A stretch of 64,000 nucleotides of DNA, from positions 1 through 64,000 of the forward strand of contig JACPGE010000092.1 in assembly GCA_016182605.1 (NCBI GenBank), read 5' to 3'. A program made the position numbers and the translations under genes. Shown here one piece after another: positions 14,296 through 15,613 of the stretch. The notes beneath the pieces are model-generated. The model saw only the letters and a list, made by a program, of their open reading frames with translations. It did not search any database and had not been told where the DNA came from. The stretch is from Candidatus Hydrogenedentota bacterium. GTDB lineage: Bacteria; Hydrogenedentota; Hydrogenedentia; Hydrogenedentales; JAEUWI01. The stretch's first letter is position 1, and the number at the start of each line of letters is the position of its first letter.

Positions 14296-14677
14296 GAATG
14301 GGGAATCCTTCTTCGTGCGCGAAAATGGGGTGTAAAGCGGGTATTCTAACGCATGGGGATGCGCATGCGCCACATGGGGAAGCATGCGGGGTATGAGTGC
14401 GAGGCGGTGCGGAGAATCGAGCGTGTTGGTTGCTGGAACCCCTCCGGGGTACATTGAAGGCGCGGATCGTGCACGGGGGTAGAGGAAGCCTAAGCGACCG
14501 AGCGACACTCGTGAATAGATTTTTACCCCACTCCATCCACCCTGGAGGATCAACCCTGGAGCATCAACCCAGGAGCTTGCATTGGGATATATTTTCGCGC
14601 TATAGAATTGGGTTATGTGAATCAGGAGCGAATCCGATTCAAACGGTGCCTATCTTGAACCCGGAGGGTTCATAGAT
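14296..14677. other. Gene-free interval upstream of pheS and the RAYT element
   Basis: No credible gene. It must contain the pheS promoter (minus strand). 14437-14500 is a decayed copy of the REP-type sequence seen at 14678-14723 (GGAAGCCTAAGCGACCG block), and GAACCCGGAGGGTTC near 14657-14671 is a perfect interrupted palindrome. Confidence 0.55.
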
Positions 14678-14723
14678 GGTAGCCGGGGGTTGAGGGAGCC
14701 TAAGCGACCGACACCCCCGGATC
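14678..14723 (+). repeat. REP hairpin, left of RAYT
   Basis: The tetranucleotide GTAG (14679-14682) sits directly 5' of a stem CCGGGGGT (14683-14690) that pairs with ACCCCCGG (14713-14720). A GTAG beside an imperfect hairpin is the hallmark of bacterial REP sequences recognised by TnpA-REP proteins. The 46 bases recur inverted, with one mismatch, at 15284-15329. Confidence 0.85.
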
Positions 14724-14781
14724 GGGTTTCACCACCACCTTATCGACCCCGGAGGGGTCGCAGCAATGGGAGATGTGTATC

Positions 14782-15228
14782 ATGTCGTCCACCTATGTCA
14801 GTCTGCATTTTCACCTCATCTTTTCCACCAAATACCGTACCCCAAATATCGACGCGGAATGGCGCGCCCGGTTGCATGAATATCTTGGAGGCACGGTGCA
14901 CGGATTGGATGGAGTGCCGCAATGCATTGGCGGCACCAATGACCACGTGCATTTGCTCGTAGGGTTGAAGTCCACGCATTGCATCGCAGATGTTATTCGC
15001 GAGATTAAGAAGGCGTCATCGGGGTGGGTACATGACACGATCGGTGTGCGGGATTTTGGATGGCAAATTGGCTACGCCGCGTTTACGGTGAGCCCAACGG
15101 CGTGCGGAGACGTGCGCCGATACATTGAACATCAGGAAGAACACCACAAGACGAAGACGTTCCTGGAGGAGCTGATTGAACTCCTGGAGCGCGCCGGGAT
15201 TGAGTACGATCCGAAGTATCTGGAATAG
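14782..15228 (+). CDS. REP-associated tyrosine transposase (IS200/IS605 Y1 family)
   Basis: 148 residues, the full length of a Y1 transposase. It carries the HUH motif H55-V-H57 (GTNDHVHLLVGL) and the catalytic tyrosine Y114 followed by the helix motif IEHQEEHH. These enzymes nick and join single-stranded DNA at hairpins; RAYT members act on REP sequences. The ATG at 14782 with GGGAG ten bases upstream is preferred to 14773. No tnpB accessory gene is present. The flanking inverted REP hairpins with GTAG identify the likely substrate. All catalytic residues are intact, so it may be active. Confidence 0.92.
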   Translation: MSSTYVSLHFHLIFSTKYRTPNIDAEWRARLHEYLGGTVHGLDGVPQCIGGTNDHVHLLVGLKSTHCIADVIREIKKASSGWVHDTIGVRDFGWQIGYAAFTVSPTACGDVRRYIEHQEEHHKTKTFLEELIELLERAGIEYDPKYLE

Positions 15229-15283
15229 AGAGTCGTGCGTGGGATCTGGGACCCCTCCGGGGTCCGTTTGAGGTGAGGATCGT

Positions 15284-15329
15284 GATCCGGGGGTGTCGGT
15301 CGCTCAGGCTCCCTCAACCCCCGGCTACC
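15284..15329 (-). repeat. REP hairpin, right of RAYT (inverted copy)
   Basis: Reverse complement of 14678-14723 with a single mismatch (45 of 46). On the minus strand it starts with the same GTAG beside the CCGGGGGT stem, so the two REPs face away from the gene they flank. Confidence 0.85.
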
Positions 15330-15332
15330 TTC

Positions 15333-15613
15333 TTTGACCCCTCCGGGGTCGGAAGCGGGAATTTCGATCCTTGGCCGGAGAATCGAGAGCTTGCTTTGAC
15401 CCCTCCGGGGTCGGATGCGGGAATTTCGATCCCTGGCCGGAGAATCGAAAGGTTGCTTTGACCCCTCCGGGGCCGGGAGCGGGAATTTCGATCCCTGGCC
15501 GGAGAATCGAGAGCTTACTTTGACCCCGCCGGGGGCGGGATCGGGAATTTCGATCCTTGGCCGGAGAATCGGGAGCTTGCTTTGACCCCTCCGGGGGCGG
15601 AAGCGGGAATTTC
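15333..15613 (+). repeat. 62-bp tandem array of palindromic units
   Basis: Four full units start at 15333, 15395, 15457 and 15519, and a fifth, partial unit at 15581. Each opens with TTTGACCCCTCCGGGG, a palindromic core, and continues GCGGGAATTTCGATCC and GGCCGGAGAATCG. Units differ at a few bases. There are no unique spacers, so it is not a CRISPR. 15614-15892 carries nothing further except a GCCGAGTGCAACTCGGC hairpin near 15779-15795, which is the core of repeat R3. Confidence 0.9.

Follow-up and report, generated by a model that had tools for sequence, protein, structure and literature searches.

The window, the 64,000-nt stretch of DNA analysed here, comes from a Candidatus Hydrogenedentota bacterium (GCA_016182605.1, contig JACPGE010000092.1, positions 1-64,000, forward strand). 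At 14657-15613 it holds a transposase gene, tnpA, with hairpins placed symmetrically on its two sides and a tandem array at its right end (Table 1).

Table 1. Features of the tnpA unit and its surroundings, in window coordinates.
Feature	Position	Strand	Evidence
Degenerate chimeric copy: right-end P and spacer joined to forward H loop	14433..14510	+	similarity; fold z = 0.2
P_out left, outer mini-hairpin GAACCC-GGA-GGGTTC, GNA loop	14657..14671	+	sequence, DNA fold, spacing kept in relatives
Foot tetranucleotide GTAG left (consensus DTAG)	14679..14682	+	sequence; TAG invariant in 27 aligned ends
Hairpin H left, stem CCGGGGGT / ACCCCCGG, 22-nt loop	14683..14720	+	inverted-repeat match, fold, covariation in relatives
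P_in left, inner mini-hairpin GACCCC-GGA-GGGGTC	14745..14759	+	sequence, fold
Likely Shine-Dalgarno GGGAG, 9 nt ahead of ATG 14782	14768..14772	+	sequence; inferred
tnpA (start ATG 14782, stop 15226-15228), 148 aa, HUH/Y1 transposase, assigned to TnpAY1 subclass 1.2	14782..15228	+	Pfam Y1_Tnp, motifs, AlphaFold model
P_in right, inner mini-hairpin	15250..15264	-	sequence, fold
Hairpin H right, inverted	15287..15324	-	45/46 match to left copy; fold
Foot GTAG right	15325..15328	-	sequence
P_out right, outer mini-hairpin; doubles as first palindrome of the array	15336..15350	-	sequence, spacing in relatives
Tandem array, 62 bp x 4.5	15333..15613	-	TRF, fold, unit sequences

The two copies of hairpin H are inverted (14678-14723 on the plus strand, 15284-15329 on the minus strand) and align over 46 nt with 98% identity. 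The first-pass annotation had described hairpins identical in 45 of 46 bases, with GTAG at the foot of both stems and a symmetric pair of 15-base palindromes inside, and all of this is borne out; the inner palindromes are identical 15-mers (GACCCCGGAGGGGTC on the left, its inverse on the right). The inverted similarity is in fact longer, 67 nt at 93% identity (14657-14723 and 15284-15350), because there is a further, outer palindrome on each side. These outer palindromes had been missed, as had the degenerate copy. Read from the outside in, each side has the order P_out, GTAG, H, P_in, with 13 nt between the P_out loop and GTAG.

The palindrome has 23 matches in the window (at most three mismatches), a number equalled by none of 100 shuffles, and nearly all of the close matches lie at 14.4-15.6 kb. 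When folded as DNA the left end is clearly structured (z = -3.5) and the right end less so (z = -1.3). In the degenerate copy H can no longer fold; its chimeric make-up would fit a flip of the H loop between the two palindromic arms of the stem.

The array had been described as five 62-bp units that start with the same palindrome. The unit length and the palindrome at the start of each unit hold, while the count is about 4.5, and units 3-5 carry variants. On the minus strand a full unit reads P, 17 nt and an 8-bp hairpin (TCGATTCT/AGGATCGA). The distance from P to this hairpin equals that from P to the H stem, and GCTC/CCTT replaces GTAG at the foot. We read the array as a P-H unit that has diverged and been amplified locally. 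Other tnpA relatives, too, have neighbouring arrays whose units contain P or P-H (L032, 75 bp x 4.1; L042, 75 x 4.3; L052, 72 x 5.7; L059, 54 x 2.6; L066, 71 x 3.5; L078, 58 x 9.7; L045, 25 x 4), so the 62-bp array is typical.

Classification of the transposase

The protein matches Pfam Y1_Tnp with an E-value of 2.7e-19. That the catalytic residues are present, as the annotation stated, is confirmed by an alignment of 32 sequences, in which the HUH histidines H55 and H57, W94-Q95, Y114, Q118, H121 and H122 are all invariant. The same annotation called the protein a RAYT, and here the outcome is different. On the NCBI model for REP-associated tyrosine transposases (NF047646) it obtains 13.5 bits and fails the cut-off of 80. 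On the IS200/IS605 model (NF033573) it scores 54.9 bits against a cut-off of 55; three of the five relatives tested on this model pass at >56 bits and one more at 67.

The sequence motifs point in the same direction. A length of 148 aa together with DH[IV]H (DHVH in the window), WQ and Y---Q--HH is the signature of TnpAY1 subclass 1.2, and the tyrosine motif is Y---Q--HH in both the window protein and its relatives, not the Y---NP of class 2 (class definitions from PMC6006769). By this published motif and length signature we assign TnpA to class 1 (IS200-like), subclass 1.2; strictly speaking, it falls outside the RAYTs. In the table of Quentin et al. 2018 the subclass has the entry 'no' for REP, which is a published description and not a defining residue, and occurs mostly in Cyanobacteria and Bacteroidetes; it is further described as being without IS properties (PMC6006769).

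The AlphaFold model of TnpA (pLDDT 90) has its closest fold match in the TnpA of ISDra2/IS608 (E about 1e-8), with E. coli RAYT more distant (E 2e-5). In a tree, E. coli RayT and eight class-2 proteins encoded in the same genome stand on one side of a split with support 100/96, and the window protein stands on the other; the deep branches of this tree are long, and two Deinococcus IS200-type rows have no settled place among the remainder. These eight further Y1 proteins are RAYT-like and lie on contigs C110, C45, C83, C89, C126, C72, C59 and C77 (loci L157-L164). One of them passes the RAYT cut-off, and the peak of P 13 nt before DTAG, described below, is absent at their loci.

The locus could instead be a canonical class-2 RAYT, or REPtron, of the E. 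coli or Stenotrophomonas type that was domesticated and whose REP population has decayed. Such an origin would agree with the GTAG foot, the inverted hairpins and the single tnpA copy per genome. However, family score, tree and Y---Q motif together refute the RAYT identity of the protein, and neither the E. coli rayT locus nor the class-2 loci of the same genome have P at a fixed spacing. We regard this origin as quite unlikely.

Composite ends beside related tnpA genes

Inverted flanking repeats are common beside related genes: they beat every shuffle in 42 of the 50 tnpA loci that have both flanks. The relatives have a common plan for the end, with the mini-hairpin P followed by 13-14 nt, DTAG and the hairpin H, and with the two flanks inverted. 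An initial scan for perfect stems was too strict and is superseded by two others, one for H with a DTAG foot and one for the distance to TAG independently of H. In the first of these H is found upstream in 35, downstream in 32 and on both sides in 27 of the 50 loci. The foot is DTAG, where D is G, T or A, and CTAG occurs only once. P accompanies 57 of the 67 H's, always 6-10 nt before DTAG. In the reversed sequence P is found at 7 of 44, at scattered distances, and on the opposite strand at 10 of 21.

When H is not required, TAG follows the P loop 58, 33 and 17 times at 13, 14 and 15 nt, compared with about 4 at other distances, where the raw counts are inflated by tandem arrays, the loci are related by descent, and the motif was discovered in the same loci in which it is counted. 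None of five other trinucleotides shows a peak at 13-15 nt, that is, the spacing is specific to TAG. The peak is found in 43 of 56 tnpA loci, from several phyla. It is absent from the class-2 loci of the same genome, the E. coli rayT locus, other loci and the remainder of the window. REP-like ends occur in Verrucomicrobiota, Acidobacteriota, Armatimonadota, Planctomycetota and the window's own order. The loops of P are mostly GNA or GNNA (GAA, GGA, GTA, GCA, GTCA, GTTA), and DNA mini-hairpins with such loops are known to be very stable.

Further, 27 ends could be aligned in register, after exclusion of rows that were out of register or had no P. TAGCC is invariant in them. Of all cells, 96.9% are paired, compared with 38-56% in slid controls; for H, which was chosen for its complementarity, this percentage is partly built in, and P was taken at a fixed distance. 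The changes are compensatory, with 11 of 13 stem pairs varying on both sides.

In principle, the whole arrangement could consist of chance palindromes in G+C-rich DNA next to a local minisatellite. The base composition would suit this, and so would the 62-bp unit being found nowhere else in the genome, but the shuffled, reversed and slid controls, the recurrence in several phyla and the P or P-H arrays beside other tnpA relatives all oppose it. The relatives refute this explanation, and we hold it to be highly improbable.

In an Acidobacteria MAG (L059, 2001-2436) a broken tnpA with 8 stops in the matched frame retains intact P-H ends; it sits 9 kb from an intact relative (L056). In Bacteroidota (L066-L076) most loci are without a G+C-rich H, and several retain P and TAG at the usual distance. 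That H is mostly lacking in this group is consistent with the published 'no REP' for subclass 1.2.

Dispersal of ends and units

The window's own genome (G000; 6.76 Mb in 130 contigs, 98% complete) contains a single tnpA of the subclass 1.2 type. The annotation had named a genome-wide count of REP and of the 62-bp unit as a check, and the absence of further REP copies as an outcome that would speak against it. Apart from the two copies at tnpA and the wreck at 14433-14510, a search for H across the contigs finds one intact copy, which stands alone in an intergenic gap (C29:135239), has P on both sides (P-H-P) and keeps the 13-nt spacing. The adverse outcome is thus only narrowly avoided, and the 62-bp unit has no copy elsewhere in this genome. 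The same search finds no genome-wide REP population, nor any inverted hairpin doublet besides the unit itself. Of the 'complete REPtron' that had been proposed, the layout therefore stands, being conserved beside related tnpA genes in several phyla, and the REP population does not stand for this genome, though it does for related ones. The unit in this genome is a low-copy and possibly resting example.

In related genomes the ends are more numerous. The pattern TAGCCGGKGG...CCMCCGG has 32 copies each in G016 and G014, 23 in G009, 22 in G036, 17 in G059 and 16 in G022, with 0-2 for the reversed pattern. P-TAGCC, which is independent of the stem, has 678 matches in 40 genomes with a tnpA relative and 39 in 20 genomes without one, with 29 for the reversed pattern over all genomes. 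The co-occurrence with tnpA has a Fisher p-value of 2e-5, to be read only as a guide since the genomes share ancestry, vary in size and are partly incomplete. The highest count is in G004 (168 copies, control 0). Many copies lie at contig ends, so all these counts are lower bounds.

The dispersed copies often take the form of inverted doublets of H, which occur at differing sites in G016, G059, G022, G009 and G014, and one in G014 encloses a piece that can be read as the C-terminus of a subclass 1.2-like TnpA. In the G016 doublets conservation continues for about 100 nt or more past P_out on both sides, which indicates that the repeat unit there is longer than P-H...H-P. We compared the flanks of five G016 doublets with G059: at one locus both flanks were found, on different contigs, at another only the left flank, and the remaining loci gave no usable pair, so that no clean empty site was seen among the five. 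A second family of palindromic repeats (GTCATTGCGAAGGCGCGCAGCGCCTGAAGCAATCC) is scattered near these elements in G016 and G059, for instance in the flank of L121.

Alternatively, P and H could be RNA or regulatory stems of tnpA, such as terminators, attenuators or translational blocks, and not substrates of the transposase. IS200 tnpA is known to be silenced by hairpins of this kind, and at many loci P_in is found a short way ahead of the start. Regulatory stems would not be expected as the same motif, inverted, on both sides of the gene and without a T-run, nor as copies and doublets dispersed without tnpA, nor in co-occurrence with tnpA across genomes, nor with species-specific stems that agree between the two ends. 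We consider this possibility very unlikely.

In G004 there are six dispersed copies (L214-L219) of a tnpA unit with an internal deletion, in which the start of tnpA (MGSSYCNLIYHMVFSTKGR...) runs directly into its end (...EEHHKEMTFQEEFIGLLEKHSVEYDERYLW), flanked by inverted P...H ends. The copies are 83-98% identical over the matched stretches and their flanks differ. In L219 the match to the other copies begins 6 nt ahead of the left P_out and stops 3 nt past the right P_out, whereas four other copies have longer flanks in common, implying that some members of the family spread within a larger repeated segment. As judged from their sequences, these deleted units are the best evidence that the unit and its ends have moved as one. 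For the intact unit no recent movement was seen; the two full G004 tnpA copies compared are diverged, with short stretches in common.

The foot of the deleted units is TAAAG in place of TAG. Because of this foot, a strict P-H search around the six derivatives gave no match, and their ends were recognised by reading the sequences. The changed guide could imply an altered cut or target site. At about 1230-1345 of L219 a nested insertion with inverted ends, CGG(T/C)CCCGACAAAAGTC...GACTTTTGTCGGGGCCG, splits the tnpA remnant; a similar end lies near the unit in L214. The insertion looks like an unrelated miniature element.

The deleted units resemble miniature elements derived from insertion sequences, and the protein and its fold are closest to IS200/IS605 TnpA, both as expected if the locus were an ordinary IS200/IS605 insertion sequence (subclass 1.1) with sub-terminal hairpins. 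Its ends are inverted, however, and the direct-repeat score of the window flanks (54) is less than half the inverted one (123). The copy number is low, and the Y---Q--HH signature is that of subclass 1.2, published as lacking IS properties (PMC6006769). An ordinary insertion sequence is therefore unlikely.

A probable mobile or once-mobile unit with REPtron-like ends and its relation to known systems

We interpret the locus as a REPtron-like, single-strand-transposing unit, mobile or once mobile, in which a subclass 1.2 TnpA lies between inverted composite ends and which is low in copy number here. We give this reading a probability of about 0.78. It builds on what was computed: the anatomy, the conserved spacing, the compensatory stem changes, the co-occurrence with tnpA, the dispersed solo ends, the doublets and, in one relative, the deleted units. 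Binding, the position of cleavage, the role of P, the single-stranded route, present activity and movement we infer from work on IS608/ISDra2 and on TnpAREP.

REP hairpins are cut as single strands, and GTAG helps to choose the cut (PMC8266576). By analogy, a TnpA dimer would bind H as a single strand, for example on the lagging-strand template, with DTAG as the guide for the cut. Y114 would cut near P_out, followed by rejoining. P lies within the conserved motif and may help to hold or expose the end; its contact with TnpA is putative. Solo ends, inverted doublets and units with a deleted tnpA could have been moved in trans, which would yield the REP- and REPIN-like populations of related genomes. 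The inverted ends do not fit the IS608 scheme, in which a single strand is read at both ends, and the unit might leave through a long, REPIN-like hairpin instead. Also against our reading are the presence of only one intact extra copy in the own genome and the TAAAG foot of the G004 derivatives.

How IS200-type transposons became REP repeats and RAYTs is an open question in the field, since movement of REPtrons as units has not been observed and subclass 1.2 was believed to lack repeats. In our case a class-1 protein has REPtron-like ends, and all stages can be found among related genomes, namely the full and the internally deleted unit, the inverted doublet, the solo end and the tandem array. 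The recurrence of the layout across phyla, together with the dispersal, suggests that mobile hairpin elements form a family midway between simple insertion sequences and REP repeats. Tentatively, and at slightly less than even odds, we propose that the end recognised by subclass 1.2 TnpA consists of two hairpins, with a GNA mini-hairpin, a fixed 13-nt arm and the DTAG guide ahead of the second hairpin, and that this TnpA moves solo ends and inverted-ended units alike. It would then be an intermediate, still in existence, between IS200 elements and REPtrons, and would illustrate how the ends of a transposable element give rise to REP populations across a genome. The fixed 13-nt spacing from P to TAG provides a sharp and cheap biochemical prediction on how the end is recognised.

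The published subclass 1.2 (PMC6006769) has the same length of 148 aa, the same DH[IV]H, WQ and Y---Q--HH motifs and a low copy number. Different here are the REP-like ends (43 of 56 loci), seen in the phyla listed above, whereas the published range is mostly Cyanobacteria and Bacteroidetes. No report of REPs for this subclass was found in the open-access literature, and among the papers listed by a literature search with the hairpin sequence all were unrelated.

IS200/IS605 elements (IS608, ISDra2) share the fold, the catalytic residues and a hairpin with a 5' tetranucleotide guide, but here the ends are inverted and composite (P plus H), the copy number is low and no tnpB is seen. REPINs (Bertels & Rainey 2011, PMC3116915) are likewise inverted hairpin doublets between genes, as in G016, G022 and others; the doublets described here differ in that they span about 190-260 nt between the outer H ends and include P_in and sometimes a tnpA remnant. 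The GTAG repeats of the PVC superphylum (Di Nocera 2013, PMC3733652) are also GTAG-tagged palindromes, in O. terrae and R. baltica. They are attributed to RAYTs, and the main text of that paper describes neither a P hairpin nor a fixed spacing; these repeats may overlap with those described here.

The closest parallel in layout is the REPtron, or TnpAREP (RAYT), of E. coli (Ec), Stenotrophomonas (Sm) and Marinomonas (Ma/Mb) (PMC8266576). It likewise has a tyrosine HUH transposase, inverted hairpins and a GTAG-like foot, as well as dispersed solos, doublets and local clusters, which in our case are seen in related genomes. Here, by contrast, the protein is of class 1, the foot is DTAG, an extra P lies 13 nt before it and copies are few in the own genome. 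Finally, here a whole unit is dispersed in a relative, whereas REPtrons reportedly do not move as units (PMC6006769).
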